From NCBI RefSeq assembly GCF_030068475.1, contig NZ_JAQOSP010000109.1:62001-126000 (forward strand): a stretch of DNA of 64,000 nt, written 5' to 3'. The notes beneath the pieces were generated by a model. It was not told the origin of the DNA. It saw only the letters and a program-made list of their open reading frames with translations, and ran no database searches. This document shows positions 15,570 through 58,602 of this stretch, piece by piece; position 1 is the stretch's first letter; every line of letters begins with the position of its first letter. This stretch comes from Roseofilum acuticapitatum BLCC-M154 (lineage in GTDB: Bacteria > Cyanobacteriota > Cyanobacteriia > Cyanobacteriales > Desertifilaceae). The position numbers were made by a program, and so were the translations under genes.

Positions 15570-15748
15570 ATATCAAATCCGGTTAAACAGTTGTCATTGC
15601 GATCGCAGCGAAGCATTCGCGCTTCTCGCAAGCTTCGCTTTCATGTTCGCGAAGCGGAAACGCCAAGATTCGGGGATTGTGCGATTGCTTCATTCCACTG
15701 CGTTCCATTCGCAATGACATACTGTAACTGATTCTTCGGATTTGATAT
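15570..15748. repeat. MITE-like repeat family B, copy B1
   Basis: The element is bounded by ATATCAAATCCGG and CGGATTTGATAT as terminal inverted repeats. Inside, TTGTCATTGCGA pairs with CGCAATGACA to form a second palindrome. B2 and B3 at 56638-56916 share the ends and this palindrome. B1 also contains a GTTCGCGAAGCGGAAAC stretch related to repeat family C, so it looks composite. It occupies most of the gap 15546-15831; the rest holds nothing recognised. Confidence 0.85.
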
Positions 15749-43974: not shown

Positions 43975-46900
43975 ATGGATGAACAACGCATCGCCGCTTA
44001 TCTTCACCTGATCCAACAACTGCTCACTTGTCCTGATGGGGACGAGGGACGGATACTGAACGAGAACCGCGAGTTGGTGAATGGGGAGTTTCTCCAGGTG
44101 TGTGAGACTATCGCCCAGCAGATGGAGCAGGGAGGGAGGGAGAATGAGGCGCAGTTTTTGCGGCAACTGGTGCGGGTGCTGCGGGGGAACGGGGAACGGG
44201 CGACAGAGCAAGAGTATAAGCAGTTTTGGATGACAGTGTTGCAAGCAACAGAGGAGAGTAGAGGAGACCCGAACGGGGTTTATCCGCTCTTGCAACAGAA
44301 TTTAGACAAATTAGATTTAACATTAGCTCAAATCTTGCCAGCTTGGGCCAGTCAGACACTGGAACAAGTTGAAGCAGAACAGAGGCAGGGTATTGCCGCA
44401 GTTATTGGTAATTTTGGTAATTTAATTCAACAATTTCCATTAGGCAGTCGGGCTGATAATCTGGAGATCGCAATCATCTGCTACGAAATTGCCTTTACAG
44501 TTTTTACCCAAGCAACGAACCCACCGATATGGGCAACTCTACAAAATAATCTGGGAGCTGTCTACTTAGACCGCATCAGGGGAGAGCGGGCCGAGAACCT
44601 GGAAAAGGCGATCGCCGCTTACTCTCTGGCCCTGCAAGTGTATACCCCTGAAGCCTTTCCCCAATACTGGGCCACCACCCAAAATAATCTGGGACTTGCC
44701 TACTTAGACCGCATCAGGGGAGAGCGGGCCGAGAACCTGGAAAAGGCGATCGCCGCTTACTCTCTGGCCCTGCAAGTGTTAACCCGTGAGGCCTTTCCCC
44801 AATACTGGGCTATGACCCAAAGTAATCTGGGAGAAGCCTACAGTAACCGCATCCGGGGAGAGCGGGCCGAGAACCTGGAAGAGGCGATCGCCGCTTACTC
44901 TCTGGCCCTGCAAGTGAGAACCCGTGAGGCCTTTCCCCAAGACTGGGCCACCACCCAAAATAATCTGGGAGCTGCCTACAGTAACCGCATCAGGGGAGAG
45001 CGGGCCGAGAACCTGGAAAAGGCGATCGCCGCTTACTCTCTGGCCCTGCAAGTGTATACCCGTGAGGCCTTTCCCCAATACTGGGCTATGACCCAACATA
45101 ATTTGGGAACTGCCTACTTATACCACATCAGGGGAGAGCGGGCCCAGAACCTAGAAGAGGCGATCGCCGCTTTCTCTCAGGCCCTGCAAGTGAGAACCCG
45201 TGAGGCCTTTCCCCAAGACTGGGCAGCAACCCAAAATAATCTGGGAGGAGCCTACCATCAGCGCATCAGGGGAGAGCGGGCCGAGAATTTGGAAAAGGCG
45301 ATCTCCGCTTACTCTCTGGCCCTGCAAGTGAGAACCCGTCAAGCCTTTCCCCAACAGTGGGCCATGACCCAAAATAATCTGGGAGCTGCTTACCGTGACC
45401 GCATCAGGGGAGAGCGGGCCAAGAACCTGGAAGAGGCGATCCGGCGTTATCAGGAAGCGCTAAAGGTGAGAACCCGCGAAGCCTTTCCGCAAGACCATGC
45501 CGCAACCCTGTGGAACCTGGGTCTGGCCTACCGGAAGGCAAGACAACCGCAGAACGCCTACAGCACTTTTGCCCAAGCCATTGACACCGTAGAAGAGATA
45601 CGCCGGGGCATTATTCTGGGTGGAGATGCAGATAAACAAAAACTGGCGGAAGAATGGCAAAAGCTCTATCAGAGCATGATCGAAGTCTGTCTTGAGCTGG
45701 AGGATGATTCTGGGGCCCTAGAATATGCCGAGCGCAGCAAGGCCCGCAACCTGGTGGAACTGCTGGCAGCCACCCGACTGCGACCGGAAGCCATTCCCCC
45801 CGACCTCTGGGAGCGCTACCGAGACCTCTATCAGCAGTGGTGGCAAGTCCAGCAACAGCAGGGGGGAGACTCGGACTCCCGTCCCACCCCTGGGGACAGC
45901 CGCAGCGCCCCGGTTGGCGGTGGGTCTGGAGTTCCGGCGGCCACTGTCCGCACTCTGCGCCAGCAGCTCGACCAGTTGATCGCAGAAGACATTACCCCCC
46001 ACGACCCCAAATTCGGCTATGGTCAACAGGTCACCCCCATCACCTACGGGGAAATTCAAGGGCTGGTCAACCCCCACACGGTGCTAGTCGAGTGGTACTT
46101 TACTGCTAAAGGTGTCCACAGTTTCATCGTCACCCACCAGGGAACCCAGCCCCAAGTCCTGACCACTGACCCCCAAGCACTGGAGCGCCTCGGAGAACTG
46201 ACCAACCTCTATCTGTCCAGCTATCAGCAAGACGACCTCACCCCCTGGCAAACCCAGTTACCCACCTATCTCGCAGCCTTGGCCGAAATCCTAGAACTCG
46301 ATACCCTGGTGGCCGCCCTTCCGGACTCCTGCCAGCAGTTAATCTTAGTCCCCTATCGCTGGTTGCACCTGTTCCCCCTGCACGCCTTACCCCTGGAGGG
46401 GGGCATTTTAGCCGACCGTTTCCCCCAAGGTATCCGCTACGCCCCCAGCAGCCAGATCCTACAGCTCTCGGTCTCGCAAGATGCGCCGGTTTCCGGTGAA
46501 GCCCTGTTCGCGGTGCAAAACCCCACAGCCGACCTGGAGTATACCGACCTGGAAGTGGAAGCCATTCAACAGTCCTTTAGCGCTCCCCCCACCATTCTCC
46601 AGGGAGAGCAAGCCACGAAAACCGAGTTTAACCAACGCCTGAGCCAACTGACGACGACGGACTTTGCCCATTTTGCCTGTCATGGCTATTTTAATTTTGT
46701 CCACCCTCAGAGTTCCGGCCTCATTCTGGCCGGTTCCCAAATGGGCGAAACCGGTGACCGACGCACCCCAGCCATCCGCTCCCGTCGGGGAACATTCGAG
46801 CCAGACAAATGCCTGATTTTGCCAGAAATCTTTAATCTGCGCTTACCCCACTGTCGCCTAGTGGTTCTCTCGGCCTGCGAAACGGCGATCTCGGATATCA

Positions 46901-47259
46901 CAGCCACCAGTGATGAATATATCAGTATTTTGGCGGGGTTTTTCTTTGCCGGTTCCCGCCATGTCCTGGGAACCCTCTGGGCCGTGAATGATGTGTCTAC
47001 GGCGTTGTTTATGATTTACTTTTACGAACGGTTGTTCACGGAACCGCGCCCCTCGGTGACGTTGGCGCTGAAGCAGACCCAGGAGTGGATGCGACAGGTG
47101 ACGGTGGGCGAGTTGCGAGGCTGGGTAAGGGGGTGTCGGTTGATGTCTGAGCCTGGGAAAAAGCGGGTGATGGCTCGTTTTGCGCGGGGATATAAACCAG
47201 AGTATACCCCCTACGATGAGCCTTATTATTGGGCGGGCTTCTGCGTGGTTGGGGTCTAG
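43975..47259 (+). CDS. TPR-CHAT domain protein (caspase-like protease)
   Basis: A 1094-residue protein. Residues 1-190 are a helical N-terminal domain. Seven nearly identical 46-residue TPR units follow (about 192-513), then degenerate TPRs to about 600, a low-complexity linker (about 625-660), and a C-terminal CHAT domain from about 850. The caspase-type dyad is visible: His903 in FAHFACHGYF and Cys968 in LVVLSACETA. CHAT proteases act in bacterial defence and programmed death, often cleaving a neighbour-encoded effector after TPR-mediated sensing. Two unknown genes follow on the same strand; one has two C-terminal membrane helices. The near identity of the TPRs points to recent expansion. 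Confidence 0.9.
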   Translation: MDEQRIAAYLHLIQQLLTCPDGDEGRILNENRELVNGEFLQVCETIAQQMEQGGRENEAQFLRQLVRVLRGNGERATEQEYKQFWMTVLQATEESRGDPNGVYPLLQQNLDKLDLTLAQILPAWASQTLEQVEAEQRQGIAAVIGNFGNLIQQFPLGSRADNLEIAIICYEIAFTVFTQATNPPIWATLQNNLGAVYLDRIRGERAENLEKAIAAYSLALQVYTPEAFPQYWATTQNNLGLAYLDRIRGERAENLEKAIAAYSLALQVLTREAFPQYWAMTQSNLGEAYSNRIRGERAENLEEAIAAYSLALQVRTREAFPQDWATTQNNLGAAYSNRIRGERAENLEKAIAAYSLALQVYTREAFPQYWAMTQHNLGTAYLYHIRGERAQNLEEAIAAFSQALQVRTREAFPQDWAATQNNLGGAYHQRIRGERAENLEKAISAYSLALQVRTRQAFPQQWAMTQNNLGAAYRDRIRGERAKNLEEAIRRYQEALKVRTREAFPQDHAATLWNLGLAYRKARQPQNAYSTFAQAIDTVEEIRRGIILGGDADKQKLAEEWQKLYQSMIEVCLELEDDSGALEYAERSKARNLVELLAATRLRPEAIPPDLWERYRDLYQQWWQVQQQQGGDSDSRPTPGDSRSAPVGGGSGVPAATVRTLRQQLDQLIAEDITPHDPKFGYGQQVTPITYGEIQGLVNPHTVLVEWYFTAKGVHSFIVTHQGTQPQVLTTDPQALERLGELTNLYLSSYQQDDLTPWQTQLPTYLAALAEILELDTLVAALPDSCQQLILVPYRWLHLFPLHALPLEGGILADRFPQGIRYAPSSQILQLSVSQDAPVSGEALFAVQNPTADLEYTDLEVEAIQQSFSAPPTILQGEQATKTEFNQRLSQLTTTDFAHFACHGYFNFVHPQSSGLILAGSQMGETGDRRTPAIRSRRGTFEPDKCLILPEIFNLRLPHCRLVVLSACETAISDITATSDEYISILAGFFFAGSRHVLGTLWAVNDVSTALFMIYFYERLFTEPRPSVTLALKQTQEWMRQVTVGELRGWVRGCRLMSEPGKKRVMARFARGYKPEYTPYDEPYYWAGFCVVGV
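44548..45513 (+). repeat. Seven 138-bp tandem repeats encoding TPR units
   Basis: Each unit encodes NLG-AY--RIRGERAENLE and KAIAAYSLALQV-TREAFPQ. The DNA is nearly identical between units, more than protein constraint alone requires, so recent duplication or gene conversion is likely. A degenerate half-unit precedes the run and a diverged TPR follows. Confidence 0.92.
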
Positions 47260-52489: not shown

Positions 52490-52571
52490 CCCCTTTTGGG
52501 AGACAATAGAGACTGTTGTGCTTGTCGAGGAAAGTTGGGGCATGAATTTTCAGTCAGTCATCGCTACCTTA
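52490..52571. repeat. Duplicate of the glyQ 5' region (left copy)
   Basis: Similar to 58519-58602. The last 47 bases (52525-52571) are identical to 58556-58602 and include the glyQ ribosome-binding site, ATG and first ten codons. Upstream the copies drift. After base 52571 they diverge completely. The copies bracket the biosynthetic island. Confidence 0.93.
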
Positions 52572-52631
52572 GTCCTAGCCCAAAACCTGGTAAAAATTGA
52601 GGGTTGGGCAATACCGGAGACAGAAAAGTGA
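52542..52631 (+). CDS. Chimeric 29-residue leader ORF (glyQ start fused to novel tail)
   Basis: ATG 52542 opens [10 protein letters not shown], the exact glyQ N-terminus, then runs VLAQNLVKIEGWAIPETEK to TGA at 52629-52631. The last four bases overlap the GTG start of the aldehyde dehydrogenase (GTGA at 52628-52631). This places the glyQ translation start in front of the operon and should couple translation to the first enzyme. It is unlikely to be functional as a peptide. Confidence 0.6.
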   Translation: MNFQSVIATLVLAQNLVKIEGWAIPETEK

Positions 52632-54040
52632 ATACTACGAATCATCAAACCGAATTAGACAAAATTCAACAGGAAGTCCATCTGTTATTAGAGAGAGCAG
52701 AAAAGGCAGCTCATGTTTTTAGTCGCTATCCGACAAAACAAGTGAAACAAATTGTCGAGGCAATGGTTGAAGCTGGCAAAGAAAAGGCTGAATTTTATGC
52801 GGAATGGTTGGTCAGTGAAACAGGATCCGGTAATGTCAGTGATAATGTAAAAAAGAATCTGGATTGTTCGGTTGGATTGCTAAATCGATATCGGATTGCT
52901 GATTTTATCGAGCCTAAGATTGATGAAGAAAAGAAGATCATGAGCTTTCCGAAACCGGCAGGAGTCATAGCCGCCTTAATCCCCAGTACTAATCCCGTGA
53001 TGACGGTCTATTACAAGGCGATTATCAGTGTGATGACCCGCAATGCGATTATTTTTTCTCCTCATCCTGCGGGACAAAATTGCTCGATTCACGTTGTAGA
53101 TTTAATGGCAGAAGTCGCGGAACAAGCAGGCGCACCATCCGGAGTAATTCAGACGATTCGCCAACCCAGCCTTCTCGCTCTGAATGCTTTAATGGCATCC
53201 CCCAAAATTAGCGCGATTTTAGCAACTGGGGGCCCCAAACGAGTCCGGGAGGCTTATCGGTCCGGGAATCCTGCGATGGGGATGGGGCCGGGAAATGTCC
53301 CCTGTTTCGTACATGAGTCTGCTGATATTGAGAGAGCAGCCGCACAAATTATCACCAGTAACAGTTTCGATCACGCGCTTCCCTGTGTTTGTGAATCGGT
53401 TGTGTTGGCCGATCGCACTATTGCTCCCCAACTCAAGGTCGCTTTAGGGCGATCGGGGGGATATTTTGTGACCGATGAAGCCGCCCAAAAACTACGCAAT
53501 TACCTTTTTCTGGAAACTGGACTGAATCGCAAAGCCATTGGGAAAAGTGCCCTTTGGATTGCTCAACAAGTTGGTTTTTCTGTGCCGAAGGATACTAAAA
53601 GTTTGCTCGTGGAAATCCATGCGGTGGGCGATCGCGAACCCCTCAGCCAAGAGAAAATGTTTCCTGTGATGGGGTACATTCAAGTGGATGGCATAGAGGG
53701 GGCAATTGAGAGGGCTGTGGCAATGTTGGAGGCGATCGGTAAAGGTCACTCTGCGGTGATTCACAGTGACGATCCGGCGATCGTTGCCCGTTATGCGGCG
53801 GCTTTGCCCGTCTGCCGAATTGCAGTCAATACCCAAGGGGTTCAAGGCTCTAGTGGCGTTTCCACGAATCTGACGATGGGACCGGTGATTGGTACGGGAT
53901 TCTTCGGGGGCAGTTCAGTGGATGATAATATCGGCCCTCAATACTTAGTACAGTGGTCTCGTGCGGCTTATCCGGCAGACTCGAAGGTTTCTCTGCAAGA
54001 TAGGGCAGAGGCGATCGCCGAGTTATCTGGAGAGGCTTAA
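52628..54040 (+). CDS. CoA-acylating aldehyde dehydrogenase (acyl-CoA reductase)
   Basis: A 470-residue enzyme of the EutE/AdhE-N/SauS type, interconverting acyl-CoA and aldehyde with NAD(P)H. Family marks: GVIAALIPSTNPVMTVYYK, RNAIIFSPHPAGQ, GAPSGVIQTI, ILATGGPKRVREAYRSGNPA, GPGNVPCFVHESAD, and catalytic Cys253 in FDHALPCVCESVV; GVQGSSGVSTNLTMGPVIGTG closes the fold. GTG 52628 is chosen because GGAGA lies 8 bases before it. It heads the type III PKS operon and the next gene is 4 bases away. In this context it may reduce the aromatic CoA thioester. Bacterial microcompartment genes, another home of this family, are absent. Confidence 0.88.
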   Translation: MNTTNHQTELDKIQQEVHLLLERAEKAAHVFSRYPTKQVKQIVEAMVEAGKEKAEFYAEWLVSETGSGNVSDNVKKNLDCSVGLLNRYRIADFIEPKIDEEKKIMSFPKPAGVIAALIPSTNPVMTVYYKAIISVMTRNAIIFSPHPAGQNCSIHVVDLMAEVAEQAGAPSGVIQTIRQPSLLALNALMASPKISAILATGGPKRVREAYRSGNPAMGMGPGNVPCFVHESADIERAAAQIITSNSFDHALPCVCESVVLADRTIAPQLKVALGRSGGYFVTDEAAQKLRNYLFLETGLNRKAIGKSALWIAQQVGFSVPKDTKSLLVEIHAVGDREPLSQEKMFPVMGYIQVDGIEGAIERAVAMLEAIGKGHSAVIHSDDPAIVARYAAALPVCRIAVNTQGVQGSSGVSTNLTMGPVIGTGFFGGSSVDDNIGPQYLVQWSRAAYPADSKVSLQDRAEAIAELSGEA

Positions 54041-54044
54041 ACCC

Positions 54045-54776
54045 ATGACAGAGCTTTCGGGTACAGTGCAAATGAAACGAGTGGGAGAAGCAAACAATAT
54101 CGCTCTCTTCGTCCTCGATCGCCCAGAAAAAGCGAATGCTTATCACGATAGGATGATTCGCCAGTTCGCAGAACAGTACGCTGAAGCTCTGAGCGATCGC
54201 ACCATTCGCGTGGGTATTGTGACGGGAGCCGGAGAGAAAGTTTTTTGCGCTGGTGCTGATATTTCCAGTTTAGGTGATCGCTCCTATGCCGATGGATTAA
54301 ACTTACAGAGTCGGCAGCTTTTTGATAATTGGGCTAATGCGCCTTGGCCAACGATCGCCGCGATTCAAGGGCCAGCCATTGCCGGGGGGTTAGAATTGGC
54401 TCTAGCTTGTGATTTTCGCATCTGTAGCCCTGGGAGTTGGTTCTCGCTACCTGAAGTCGATTTAGGCTTAATTCCGGCTGCTGGGGGAGTGCGTCGGCTG
54501 ACTAAATTGGTGAACGAAGCGAGGGCAAAAGTGATCGTTCTCTTTGGGCAAAAAGTGGATAGTGCCACAGCGCTACAGTGGGGACTGGTTTCTCAAATCA
54601 GCGATCGCCTCTGGGAGGACACCCTTCACCTTGCCGAAACTGTAGCTCAACGAGATCCCCTGGCGATGCACCTGGCGAAACTGGCCATCCAATCGGTTCA
54701 TGGGAGTTTGGGAGATAAAACTGTCGAAGCCGTTGCCCAAGCATTACTCTACCAGCGAAAAATAGAGACACAATAG
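54045..54776 (+). CDS. Enoyl-CoA hydratase/isomerase, DpgD-like
   Basis: A 243-residue crotonase-fold protein from ATG 54045. The oxyanion hole is VFCAGADIS and QGPAIAGGLELALACDF, and the two catalytic acids Glu117 and Glu137 (in SLPEVDLGLIPAAGG) are present, so it should be active. Next to a DpgA-like polyketide synthase it may correspond to DpgD, which assists dehydration and aromatisation to 3,5-dihydroxyphenylacetyl-CoA. The start follows the reductase stop by 4 bases and GGAGAGG lies before it. The DpgD link is context-based. Confidence 0.85.
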   Translation: MTELSGTVQMKRVGEANNIALFVLDRPEKANAYHDRMIRQFAEQYAEALSDRTIRVGIVTGAGEKVFCAGADISSLGDRSYADGLNLQSRQLFDNWANAPWPTIAAIQGPAIAGGLELALACDFRICSPGSWFSLPEVDLGLIPAAGGVRRLTKLVNEARAKVIVLFGQKVDSATALQWGLVSQISDRLWEDTLHLAETVAQRDPLAMHLAKLAIQSVHGSLGDKTVEAVAQALLYQRKIETQ

Positions 54777-54780
54777 CATT

Positions 54781-55872
54781 ATGGTCGCGCCCAAATCACT
54801 CATGCAATCTTCCGTAACTTCTTCCAAATTTCCCCGACTTATTGCGATCGGTACTGCCACTCCTCCACACAAATACACTCAGGCCGATGTATTAAAAATT
54901 TTCAATATCACTAATCCAAAAACTCGCAAAATTTTCAGTAATTCTCATATCAAATCCCGTCACCTTTGTTTACCCAAACCCAATCAAGAGGGTCAGAGGG
55001 TGCAAGAAAGCCAAGGGGATTTACTAGAGAAACACAAAAAGATGGCGCTAGATATTGGACAGTCAGCCATCAAAAAAGCATTAGAAAAAGCTGGACTGAA
55101 TCCTCAAGATATTGATTACATCAGTGTCGTCTCCACCACAGGTTTGCTCTGTCCGAGCCTGAGCGCACTTTATATCAAAGAGATGGGGATGCGTCAGAAC
55201 ATTTATCGGATTGATATTGTTGGCATGGGCTGCAATGCAGGATTAAATGGTCTTCAACCGGTCGTCAATTTTTGTGCCCTCAATCCAGAGGCGATCGGTC
55301 TCCTCCTTTGTGTTGAAGTCTGTTCTGCCATGTATGCAATTGATGATACCTTCAGTACAGCAGTGGTCAATTCGTTATTTGGAGATGGTGCAGCCGCCGC
55401 GATCGTTTCTGGCCGAGCTTTTCCCGGATTATCCACTGGGCCCAAAATTCTGGGCTTCAGCTCCCACATCATGCCAGAGGCGATCGATGCTATACGGCTT
55501 GATTGGCAAGCAACCCACTATGCCTTATATTTGGATCGACAAATTCCTTATCTTTTGGGACGGAATGTTAAAATTCCTGTGGATCGCTTGCTCGATCGCT
55601 TCAATCGCAAACGCCGAGATATTCAGCATTGGGTGATTCATTCCGGGGGGCGCAAAGTGATCGATTCGATCAAATATGCTTTAAATATTACCGAGCATGA
55701 TGTTCGCCATACCACCCATATCCTGCAAAATTATGGTAATTTATCTTCGGCCTCTTTTCTCTTCTCTCACGAACGACTATTGCAGGAAGGCGTTGCTCAG
55801 GAGGGAGAGTCTGTCATCATGATGACGATGGGACCGGGTTCGACGATTGAATGCTGCTTGGGGGAATTTTAA
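54781..55872 (+). CDS. Type III polyketide synthase, DpgA-like
   Basis: A 363-residue chalcone-synthase-fold enzyme. The catalytic triad is Cys151 in DIVGMGCNAGLNG, His287 in WVIHSGGRKVID and Asn320 in LQNYGNLSSAS. The stretches CVEVCSAMYAIDDT, STAVVNSLFGDGAAAAI and GFSSHIMPEAIDAIRLDW match 3,5-dihydroxyphenylacetyl-CoA synthase (DpgA) far better than plant chalcone or alkylresorcinol synthases, as I recall them. DpgA condenses four malonyl-CoA. The tight operon with two crotonase-fold proteins agrees. Starter and chain length must be tested. Confidence 0.88.
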   Translation: MVAPKSLMQSSVTSSKFPRLIAIGTATPPHKYTQADVLKIFNITNPKTRKIFSNSHIKSRHLCLPKPNQEGQRVQESQGDLLEKHKKMALDIGQSAIKKALEKAGLNPQDIDYISVVSTTGLLCPSLSALYIKEMGMRQNIYRIDIVGMGCNAGLNGLQPVVNFCALNPEAIGLLLCVEVCSAMYAIDDTFSTAVVNSLFGDGAAAAIVSGRAFPGLSTGPKILGFSSHIMPEAIDAIRLDWQATHYALYLDRQIPYLLGRNVKIPVDRLLDRFNRKRRDIQHWVIHSGGRKVIDSIKYALNITEHDVRHTTHILQNYGNLSSASFLFSHERLLQEGVAQEGESVIMMTMGPGSTIECCLGEF

Positions 55873-55875
55873 GGC

Positions 55876-56577
55876 ATGAGGCAATACACTACGTTAAAAC
55901 TTACTAAACGGGAAACGATCGCCAATGTCAACTTGCAATGGTCAGATCCAAGCCAGTTGAATGCAGTCGGGTTGTCAGAATTGCTCCAATTAATCAACGA
56001 GATCGAAGATGACGAGACTTGTAAGCTCATCATATTTTGGGGATTGGATGTTCAACAGACAGCGATCGCCGCACCGCCTACATTTGATGCTTGTAGCAAA
56101 TGGGAAAAGTTTTTACGGCGGCTCGAACGATTTGCGGGGGCATCCATTGCGGCGATCGATGGCTATTGTACCCGGTTTCACGTTCAACTTGCCCTCGCTT
56201 GCGATTATCGGGTTGCGACTGCGCGATCGCTCTTCCAAATACCAGAAGTGAAAGAAGGGTATCTCCCTGGAATGGGGGTATTCCGATTAGCTAAATATAC
56301 GGGAGTAGGCGTTGCTCGTCGCTTGCTGTTTACTGGCGCTCAATTTTCTGTTGAAGAGGCGATCGCACTGGGAATTGTCGATCGCGCCTGTGAAACGACT
56401 GCATTGGAACAGACTATTGAAGATGTGCAGCAGGCGTTGATGCCGATTCACCCTCAAGTATTACAAAATACCCGCAGATTACTCAATGAATCTTTTGCCA
56501 CGTCTTATGAAGATGCGATCGGACATTATTTAGCAGTACAGGATCTATGCCTATCTCAATTGCCAGAGAGAACATAA
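55876..56577 (+). CDS. Degenerate crotonase-fold protein, DpgB-like
   Basis: A 233-residue crotonase relative, 4 bases after the PKS stop. The fold marks AAIDGYCTRFHVQLALACDYRVA and FQIPEVKEGYLPGMGVFRLA are present, but the first oxyanion loop (AGADI type) is missing and the Gly-Gly-Glu of the second is changed, so hydratase activity is doubtful. DpgB is likewise a diverged crotonase that raises DpgA output. It may be an assembly or cyclisation partner. The gene ends the compact four-gene run. Confidence 0.8.
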   Translation: MRQYTTLKLTKRETIANVNLQWSDPSQLNAVGLSELLQLINEIEDDETCKLIIFWGLDVQQTAIAAPPTFDACSKWEKFLRRLERFAGASIAAIDGYCTRFHVQLALACDYRVATARSLFQIPEVKEGYLPGMGVFRLAKYTGVGVARRLLFTGAQFSVEEAIALGIVDRACETTALEQTIEDVQQALMPIHPQVLQNTRRLLNESFATSYEDAIGHYLAVQDLCLSQLPERT

Positions 56578-56637
56578 CCTAAAATATAATGGGTGTCAGC
56601 GAAGTGCATTCATCCGTAAGCAATCAAATACCAGGTA

Positions 56638-56916
56638 ATATCAAATCCGATTAAACCATTGTCATTGCGACCGCAGGGAAGCAATCGCCAAGATTACCGA
56701 GATGGTTGAGATTGCTTCATTCCGCTGGAGCGACCTTCGCAATGACTAATCGTAACTGATTTTCCGAACTTGATATAATATCAAATCCGGTTAAAGACTT
56801 GTCATTGCGACTAGAGGGAAGCAATCGCCAAGATTACCGAGATGATCGAGATTGCTTCGTTCCGCTGGCGCTCCACTCGCAATGACATACTGTAACTAAT
56901 TATTCGGATTTGATAT
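56638..56916. repeat. MITE-like repeat family B, tandem copies B2 and B3
   Basis: B2 (56638-56776) and B3 (56778-56916) are both 139 bases and one base apart, with ends ATATCAAATCCG and CGAACTTGATAT or CGGATTTGATAT, and the TTGTCATTGCGA/CGCAATGAC palindrome inside. They separate the four-gene PKS run from the methyltransferase, filling the gap 56578-56921. Confidence 0.93.
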
Positions 56917-56921
56917 AACTG

Positions 56922-57944
56922 ATGATTCCTTATCAACAAATGTTTTGCCTGCTCGACTATCGCATTGTCTCCCACTTTACGGAGACCTGTATTAGCCTTG
57001 GGGTATTCGATCATCTTGCAACTCATTCTTTATCTGTATCGGAGTTAGCCAAGCGAACCGGAACTCATCAGCGATCGCTCCATCGCTGTTTACGGGGACT
57101 GGCTCATTTTGACTTGTTCGCGATCGAACCGGATGCCAATCCTTCTCGGTCTATGGTTTCTCTGACCGACGTTTCACAATACTTAGTCCTGAACTCAGAA
57201 TTTTCCCTCAGACCATGGCATCACTTCTGTCAGTTAGCCCAGTCCAGAAAACATGAGCAACGACGGACTCTGTGGAAAGAACTGTTACAGACTGGCAAAA
57301 GTATTTATCAGCTTGGGCGCGATCGCCTCTTCTACGATTATCTACAAGAACATCAGGATTTAGCCACTGCTTTTGATCAAGCAATGGAGTCCATGTCGCG
57401 GGTCGAAATTCGGGATATTTTGCAAGGGTTTGACTTTTCTCAATCCCAAAAGATTGCTGAAATTGCCGGGGGAAATGGGGCACTCATTACCGGAATTTTA
57501 CAAAAGTACGAAGGCATTCAGGGGCAACTGTTTGATGTTCCCGACACGATATCTCGCGTCTCTGGTCAACCGCGTTTGCAGGCGATCGGCGTTGATATGC
57601 GCGTTACATTACCCGATATTCCGGGGGATAGCATCCTAAAACGGATTTTGCATTCCTATTCTGATGAGCAGGCACTCACGATTCTCAGAAATGTCAGGCA
57701 GGCCATGCACCCTGGTAACAAACTATACATTTTTGAACTGATTGAAGATTGCCAAGTCCGCAACCCCTATATCGGCATCAAAAACTTGCAGATGTTGTTA
57801 GTACATGGCGCACCAGGAGAAAGTGGAGGCCCCGGAGAACGGACTCGATACGAGTTTGCCTCTTTACTCCACAGCGCAGGCTTTGAACTGGTTAACATTC
57901 AACCCTTACCCTCGATTGACGCAATTGTAGCAGTTTACCCCTAG
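56922..57944 (+). CDS. SAM-dependent O-methyltransferase (family 2, PF00891 type)
   Basis: A 340-residue methyltransferase. The N-terminal dimerisation winged-helix (1-110) has GVFDHLATHSLSVSELAKRT. The SAM domain shows AEIAGGNGALITGILQKY, the acidic FDVPDTI, and RILHSYSDEQALTILRNVRQAM. Such enzymes methylate phenolic hydroxyls, including polyketide products. It lies downstream of the DpgA-like operon but is separated from it by two B repeats, which may lower co-transcription. Its stop overlaps the stop of the convergent TerB-like gene by 4 bases. Confidence 0.88.
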   Translation: MIPYQQMFCLLDYRIVSHFTETCISLGVFDHLATHSLSVSELAKRTGTHQRSLHRCLRGLAHFDLFAIEPDANPSRSMVSLTDVSQYLVLNSEFSLRPWHHFCQLAQSRKHEQRRTLWKELLQTGKSIYQLGRDRLFYDYLQEHQDLATAFDQAMESMSRVEIRDILQGFDFSQSQKIAEIAGGNGALITGILQKYEGIQGQLFDVPDTISRVSGQPRLQAIGVDMRVTLPDIPGDSILKRILHSYSDEQALTILRNVRQAMHPGNKLYIFELIEDCQVRNPYIGIKNLQMLLVHGAPGESGGPGERTRYEFASLLHSAGFELVNIQPLPSIDAIVAVYP

Positions 57945-58441
57945 TCTTCTCCCGGAATACCTTCAGGATGCCAGATCCGAATCCGCTTCTCTCTCAAAGC
58001 CTGTTCTTCTTCAAACAAACTCTCAAGTTCTGCTACTTTGGCTTCGTCAATTCCGAGCTTGCCAGCCATTTTACGAATCGTCGCCTTTTCTCCGTCACTG
58101 TAGTCCCCATCCGCAGCCGAAGCCTGAATTGCTTCATAAACGAGAACATAACGTCCCTTTTTGGCTAGGGGATCGCTGAATACGAGTTTTTCAAGATCGT
58201 CGGTTGTGCCTGTTCCGTCATAATTCCTAAGTTCGTCAATTTGGCTCTCACTCATCTCAGGATGGTAGGTTGTGGCATGACCGATGACCCAATCCCGTTC
58301 GGGTTGTGAGAGTTCTCCATCTCCATTGGCACAGAGTAGCAAGGCTTTGTACCAAATTACAGAGGTCTCGGGGGGAAGGGTTTTGGTAATTCCGTAGCGA
58401 TCGGTTTTAATCCAAGGGGCTGGCCCGTAGACTTCATACAT
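57941..58441 (-). CDS. TerB-like domain protein
   Basis: A 166-residue soluble protein from ATG 58441. The central helical text ALLLCANGDGELSQPERDWV and YEAIQASAADGDYSDGEKATIRKMAGKLGI gives two acidic helix pairs typical of the TerB/DjlA-N fold, with DGDY and DGELS as potential metal sites. Function is unknown; TerB-like proteins are linked to stress and membrane processes. It sits in the island in the opposite orientation, next to glyQ, and may be original to the locus rather than part of the pathway. Confidence 0.75.
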   Translation of the reverse strand: MYEVYGPAPWIKTDRYGITKTLPPETSVIWYKALLLCANGDGELSQPERDWVIGHATTYHPEMSESQIDELRNYDGTGTTDDLEKLVFSDPLAKKGRYVLVYEAIQASAADGDYSDGEKATIRKMAGKLGIDEAKVAELESLFEEEQALREKRIRIWHPEGIPGED

Positions 58442-58518: not shown

Positions 58519-58602
58519 CCCCCTTTTAAGGGAAAATAGAAACTGTTGTACTCGATCGAGGAAAGTTGGGGCATGAATTTTCAGTCAGTCATCGCTACCT
58601 TA
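58519..58602. repeat. glyQ 5' region, original (right) copy
   Basis: Counterpart of 52490-52571, with 47 identical bases at 58556-58602. Here the sequence continues into the full glyQ gene, so this is taken as the original. Confidence 0.93.

Follow-up and report, generated by a model that had tools for sequence, protein, structure and literature searches.

We analyzed a 64,000-nucleotide (nt) stretch of Roseofilum acuticapitatum BLCC-M154 (contig NZ_JAQOSP010000109.1; hereafter the window, whose positions serve as coordinates) and, on balance, favour the view that the five open reading frames (ORFs) at 52628-57944, all on the + strand, form a small specialised-metabolism operon, to which an adjoining TerB-family gene is linked. 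In this operon, malonyl-coenzyme A (malonyl-CoA) would be converted to 3,5-dihydroxyphenylacetyl-CoA, released reductively as the aldehyde and then O-methylated, with the TerB-family protein as a helper. The genes follow the order dehydrogenase, crotonase, synthase, second crotonase and O-methyltransferase, and the Pfam/NCBIfam families of all five agree with these enzyme classes. The features and their predicted products are as follows:

52628..54040, + strand: CoA-acylating aldehyde dehydrogenase (acyl-CoA reductase), ORF1; 470 amino acids (aa), GTG start, Cys253
54045..54776, + strand: enoyl-CoA hydratase-type crotonase in the DpgD position, ORF2; 243 aa, both glutamates kept
54781..55872, + strand: type III polyketide synthase of the DpgA clade, ORF3; 363 aa
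55876..56577, + strand: degenerate crotonase, DpgB-like, ORF4; 233 aa
56636..56915, no strand: sequence repeat, two tandem 140-nt copies with inverted ends, before the methyltransferase gene
56922..57944, + strand: S-adenosylmethionine (SAM)-dependent O-methyltransferase (Methyltransf_2 plus dimerisation domain), ORF5; 340 aa, His244
57941..58441, - strand: TerB-family protein, operon-linked in five carriers; 166 aa, PF05099

The gene set was found in five genomes (the carriers), namely the window genome (G000), G392, G393, G508, which belongs to another family of the order, and G671, which belongs to another order of the class; together they span three families and two orders. An earlier reading of the window from its letters alone (the sequence-only reading) had proposed looking for the same gene order in other cyanobacteria, and the first four genes proved collinear in all five carriers, ORF4 being cut by the contig end in G671; the methyltransferase gene was likewise found in 5/5. 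The spacing of the first four genes, 3-4 nt in the window and a few nt or overlapping in G508, suggests an operon. None of the copies of the five enzymes in the carriers contained an internal stop, and the ratio of non-synonymous to synonymous substitution rates (dN/dS) was about 0.06-0.25, some dS values being saturated. Since five genomes keep the genes free of stops and under purifying selection, the gene set is not a product of chance. Gene content, family membership, intact catalytic residues and conservation are established at the level of sequence comparison. In genome samples that overlap one another and cover part of the phylum's genomes, a synthase above the DpgA cut-off occurred in 1/386 phylum genomes (the window genome only), in 3/10 genomes of the family and in 3/6 of the genus; at E<=1e-50, the synthase was found in 4/388 order genomes and 2/388 class genomes.

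Synthase, crotonase relatives and dehydrogenase

The sequence-only reading had described ORF3 as a DpgA-type synthase, and the phylogeny against other type III synthases that it had proposed bore this out. ORF3 scored 458.4 bits against the NCBIfam DpgA model (NF042429), exceeding the curated cut-off of 425, and in a 33-sequence tree the operon synthases of the five carriers joined six actinomycete DpgA proteins (L051, L053 and L054, annotated as dpgA; L049, L050 and L052, from unannotated records and named by match) in a clade at 100/100. Each group was also a single clade, the operon synthases being sister to the actinomycete DpgAs. In this tree, which included 18 of the other type III sequences and no named alkylresorcinol synthase, the approximately unbiased (AU) test rejected a union of the operon synthases with the alkylpyrone-type Pks11 (6e-7), 1u0m (6e-6), 4b0n (2e-4) or Steely1 (0.002), ruling out a synthase of any of these types; the tests for 1u0m and Steely1 are less sure because both are long branches. 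We take 1u0m to be THN synthase and 4b0n to be an algal type III synthase. An earlier tree, built without rows L023 and L025 and with a FabH outgroup row only 31% filled, contained the same 100/100 clade. The triad residues Cys151/His287/Asn320 are present in ORF3; these, and the dehydrogenase and crotonase residues named below, are the catalytic positions described for their families.

The two crotonase relatives had been likened to DpgB and DpgD, of which the first likeness stands and the second holds by position only. ORF4 is a credible DpgB relative by sequence: the best of 68 NCBIfam models was DpgB (NF042431; 105.8 bits, the next reaching 79.2). Among crotonases it grouped tentatively with DpgB, at 93/87 in a tree using 3/6 DpgC rows, trimmed (95/91 in a tree holding one Variovorax row in the wrong frame). 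In the alignment, three features are common to ORF4 and DpgB: a KWE...RRLER stretch, a gap of one residue following PGM, and the motif ED-A/C-I/L-G at the C terminus. Its local identity to six DpgB-type proteins is 28-36%, which is comparable to the overall identity of 29-31% between Xanthomonas and actinomycete DpgB given in the accessible part of PMC3849588 and thus counts for a DpgB-type assignment. The sequence-only reading had called the DpgB-like protein degenerate and the active residues of the DpgD-like one kept, and both points hold: ORF4 has Gln at the first crotonase glutamate (Q104), keeps the second (E124) and lacks the first oxyanion-hole segment, and ORF2 keeps both glutamates, E117 and E137, aligned with those of DpgD. 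ORF2 matched Pfam ECH_1 at 151 bits and scored best with general enoyl-CoA hydratase models (148.7 bits), the DpgD model (NF042430) coming 17th in the list at 120.5 bits. It is 32-35% identical to actinomycete DpgD; for Xanthomonas DpgD, the accessible part of PMC3849588 gives 61-62%. A clade of ORF2 with DpgD was neither shown nor rejected by the crotonase tree (p-AU 0.206), and we discarded ORF2 as a true DpgD on its score, 120.5 against a cut-off of 400 bits, and its identity. By these measures, ORF2 is a generic enoyl-CoA hydratase in the place of DpgD.

ORF1 belongs, judging from its profile matches, to the CoA-acylating aldehyde dehydrogenases, as had been claimed for the reductase that heads the operon. 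Its top four NCBIfam models are all of this class, namely AdhE (386.8 bits), EutH_ACDH (acetylating; 381.4), SauS (acylating; 273.5) and PRK15398 (250.9), which we take to be of EutE/PduP nature, and the fifth falls to 51.5 bits. The best PDB match was 5j78, an acetylating acetaldehyde dehydrogenase (E 1e-95), and Cys253, kept in all five carriers, aligned with the cysteine of the AdhE-type enzymes, which interconvert acyl-CoA and aldehyde. No relative of ORF1 at E<=1e-8 was found in 6/6 actinomycete dpgA loci (9 kb each side), and no microcompartment genes were found among the window proteins scanned.

DpgC had been reported absent, and in a search for it elsewhere in the genome none of the four carriers searched (all except G671) contained a protein over its cut-off (0/4), the best matches being the operon's own crotonases. 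The aminotransferase had been reported absent too; neither an aminotransferase nor a non-ribosomal peptide synthetase was found among the 17 window proteins scanned, the aminotransferase not having been sought genome-wide.

Methyltransferase and TerB-family gene

ORF5 carries both the Methyltransf_2 and the dimerisation domain of Pfam (89.8 and 43.5 bits, each above its gathering score), as expected of the O-methyltransferase that had been placed after the operon, and it keeps the SAM motif and the motif histidine His244. Its nearest solved structures are AlpH and CalO6 (phmmer 103-106 bits). In the window, ORF5 stands 344 nt from ORF4, and 280 nt of this gap consist of the two tandem 140-nt repeat copies. 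One copy lies at the same place in L032, and the repeat was not found at this junction in L047 (G392), where the gap is only 44 nt. With a gap that short in G392 and the repeats occupying that of the window, we rejected the methyltransferase as a mere neighbour. The repeats resemble miniature inverted-repeat transposable elements, with ATATCAAATCCG-type inverted ends, and a diverged further copy lies at window 15570-15747.

The five genes listed in the sequence-only reading are real, but a linked TerB-family gene and its decay in relatives had been missed. The encoded protein scored 25.9 bits against PF05099, passing the gathering score of 24.4, and matched PDB 2ou3 by profile (E 1e-23). An AlphaFold model made from one sequence had a mean predicted local distance difference test score (pLDDT) of 67.6 and was not used. 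In G000, G392, G393 and G508 the TerB gene faces the methyltransferase gene, whereas in G671 it precedes the dehydrogenase gene and has the same orientation; because of this different placement, the linkage is seen in two arrangements. The TerB protein is more tightly conserved than the enzymes (90-99% among carriers, dN/dS 0.03-0.09). At E<=1e-45 it occurred in 7/388 order genomes (four carriers, G386, G388 and G557) and in 2/388 class genomes, both carriers. In G386 and G388, where the synthase was not found in the family and order searches, a TerB copy with an internal stop lies beside a C-terminal methyltransferase remnant (41 and 92-94 codons), that of G388 standing 195 nt from the contig end. 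These remnants indicate that methyltransferase and TerB have decayed jointly in the two relatives. In G389, G390, G391, G008, G387 and G419, relatives of TerB and methyltransferase were distant (34% or less) or lacking. Although few in number, the three lineages involved take the TerB linkage beyond common ancestry in a single genus. No other ter gene was found among the window proteins scanned. To our knowledge, the molecular role of the TerB family is unsettled.

Proposed pathway and its alternatives

The first step of the proposed pathway is well supported by analogy with the established chemistry of DpgA, DpgB and DpgD (accessible parts of PMC5132015 and PMC3849588): the synthase would condense four malonyl-CoA to the DpgA product, and the DpgB-like ORF4 together with ORF2 would aid dehydration and aromatisation, giving 3,5-dihydroxyphenylacetyl-CoA. 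For the later steps, we infer direction, order and product from gene family and position. With no DpgC, the CoA-acylating dehydrogenase would use NAD(P)H to free the acyl group as 3,5-dihydroxyphenylacetaldehyde, which a housekeeping enzyme might reduce on to the arylethanol; the O-methyltransferase would then cap one or both ring hydroxyls; and the TerB-family protein would help, perhaps in handling the reactive phenolic aldehyde or in keeping it from harming the cell.

Several observations weigh against this proposal, which is built on sequence comparison. With 46-50% identity to the six actinomycete DpgA proteins, membership of the DpgA clade is no proof of an unchanged product; ORF4 lies under the curated DpgB cut-off (105.8 against 140 bits) and ORF2 far under that of DpgD. 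ORF1 falls short of every equivalog cut-off (AdhE, 951; EutH_ACDH, 620; SauS, 600 bits), and the enzyme could instead work oxidatively or accept a short aliphatic aldehyde, the kind of substrate named for its closest relatives. In G508, two inserted ORFs stand between the operon and the methyltransferase gene, and in G671 this gene lies near the end of a contig other than that of the operon. Finally, G557 has an intact TerB gene of the same subfamily (L096 10201-10707, - strand), and the other five genes were not found within the 20 kb examined around it, which speaks against a strict dependence of TerB on the operon; this gene is either a last remnant or has an independent role. The two ORFs inserted in G508 (L046 12238-13653, - strand) are alike and, on visual inspection, PEP-CTERM-like; they separate the DpgB-like gene from the methyltransferase gene.

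A first alternative is that 3,5-dihydroxyphenylacetyl-CoA is made, but that the dehydrogenase is oxidising and CoA-acylating, supplying acetyl-CoA or another acyl-CoA or recycling aldehyde, so that the product would be an O-methylated 3,5-dihydroxyphenylacetic acid or amide. The nearest named kin of ORF1, the acetylating acetaldehyde dehydrogenases and its best-ranked plasmid relative, a Rhodococcus jostii RHA1 aldehyde dehydrogenase encoded in a microcompartment operon (42%), are of families able to run so. We nevertheless consider this unlikely, as the gene heads the operon and stays with it in 5/5 carriers, and as DpgA requires malonyl-CoA only, according to the accessible parts of PMC5132015 and PMC3849588.

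It is also improbable, in our estimate, that the synthase has drifted to another product, differing in chain length or ring closure, on which dehydrogenase and methyltransferase act, the likeness to Dpg being misleading. The modest identity to actinomycete DpgA, the separate sister clade of the operon synthases and a set that includes neither DpgC nor a true DpgD would fit such a drift. On the other side stand the score above the curated DpgA cut-off, the DpgB-type partner that has been kept, and the finding that even the DpgA of complete Xanthomonas Dpg sets shares 54-55% identity with its actinomycete counterparts (accessible part of PMC3849588).

That methyltransferase, TerB gene and perhaps dehydrogenase merely lie beside a Dpg-like trio is very improbable: the left flank of the operon varies between carriers, the methyltransferase is detached in G508 and G671 and TerB occurs without the operon in G557, but the first four genes are joined by gaps of a few nt or overlaps, all five enzymes occur in 5/5 carriers, and in the samples searched the TerB subfamily (E<=1e-45) is confined to the carriers, the two genomes with methyltransferase remnants and G557.

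Returning to reductive release, a bolder version, which we put forward tentatively, is that the operon opens a third way out of the Dpg aromatic pathway, in which a CoA-dependent reduction yields an O-methylated aryl-acetaldehyde or arylethanol and TerB is a dedicated partner (a chaperone, sensor or self-protection factor). Such a partner role would give a TerB protein, for the first time as far as we know, a defined task connected with a small molecule, and the exit would yield cyanobacterial type III polyketides of a new class. The linkage in any case offers a handle on the TerB family, and the operon would be a source of 3,5-dihydroxyphenylacetyl compounds without DpgC.

Two further observations concern the surrounding DNA. 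Directly upstream of the operon, window 52490-52571 is an 82-nt copy (90%) of the 5′-terminal part of glyQ, which lies downstream of the operon (58520-58602), suggesting a local rearrangement that placed the front end of glyQ before the operon; this second copy is absent from L032, L047, L046 and L089. Window 43975-47259 (+ strand) encodes a 1094-aa protein, possibly for defence or signalling, in which many similar TPR-type units were recognised by eye and whose C terminus carries a CHAT domain (Pfam, 164 bits).

Comparison with known systems

Individually, the accessory proteins resemble known families. ORF1 shares family scores and the catalytic cysteine with the N-terminal domain of AdhE, EutE/PduP and SauS, but is free-standing, without an alcohol dehydrogenase domain, and lies under each curated cut-off. 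ORF5 has the domain pair and the motif histidine of AlpH and CalO6, but these are distant relatives. The TerB-family protein belongs by profile to the same family as TerB/COG3793 (PDB 2ou3), its operon-tied form being a closely conserved subfamily of its own.

Among cyanobacteria, the accessible part of Larsen et al. 2021 (PMC8086630) reports one 'clade 1' (DpgA-clade) synthase in 517 genomes, that of Moorea producens PAL-8-15-08-1, whose cluster is said to be unlike other clusters of the DpgA clade; we compared this cluster by its description only. With the Moorea synthase already in print, cyanobacteria were known to have this type of synthase. The gene set as a whole was not found described in the accessible text of the open-licence PMC literature searched, and nothing relevant on dimethoxytoluene in cyanobacteria was found in the literature searched (accessible parts of PMC7554305 and PMC4400912). 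The same part of PMC8086630 gives hierridins and (7.7)paracyclophanes as the only cyanobacterial type III polyketides isolated as of 2021, to which an operon of five to six DpgA-clade genes would add a third chemistry.

Homologues of DpgA, DpgB and DpgD also occur outside Dpg biosynthesis, likewise with an aldehyde dehydrogenase, in Ken2-7 and VemA-F, which make the starter units of kendomycin and venemycin (accessible part of PMC5132015). For those clusters, the proposed route runs through a DpgC homologue and a decarboxylase to 3,5-dihydroxybenzaldehyde, and an enzyme of the benzaldehyde-dehydrogenase type then converts this aldehyde to the acid by oxidation (same source), whereas the operon's dehydrogenase belongs with the CoA-acylating enzymes and the search of four carriers yielded no DpgC. 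Compared with the DpgA-DpgB-DpgC-DpgD pathway of glycopeptide producers, which makes 3,5-dihydroxyphenylglycine, the operon has in addition a dehydrogenase, a methyltransferase and a TerB gene, DpgC was not found in those four carriers, and ORF2 is not DpgD by sequence. Common to both are a DpgA-clade synthase, a DpgB-type helper and an adjoining crotonase with both glutamates, and a reductive exit followed by methylation would constitute a new branch of this known pathway, whose ring feeds vancomycin-type antibiotics.

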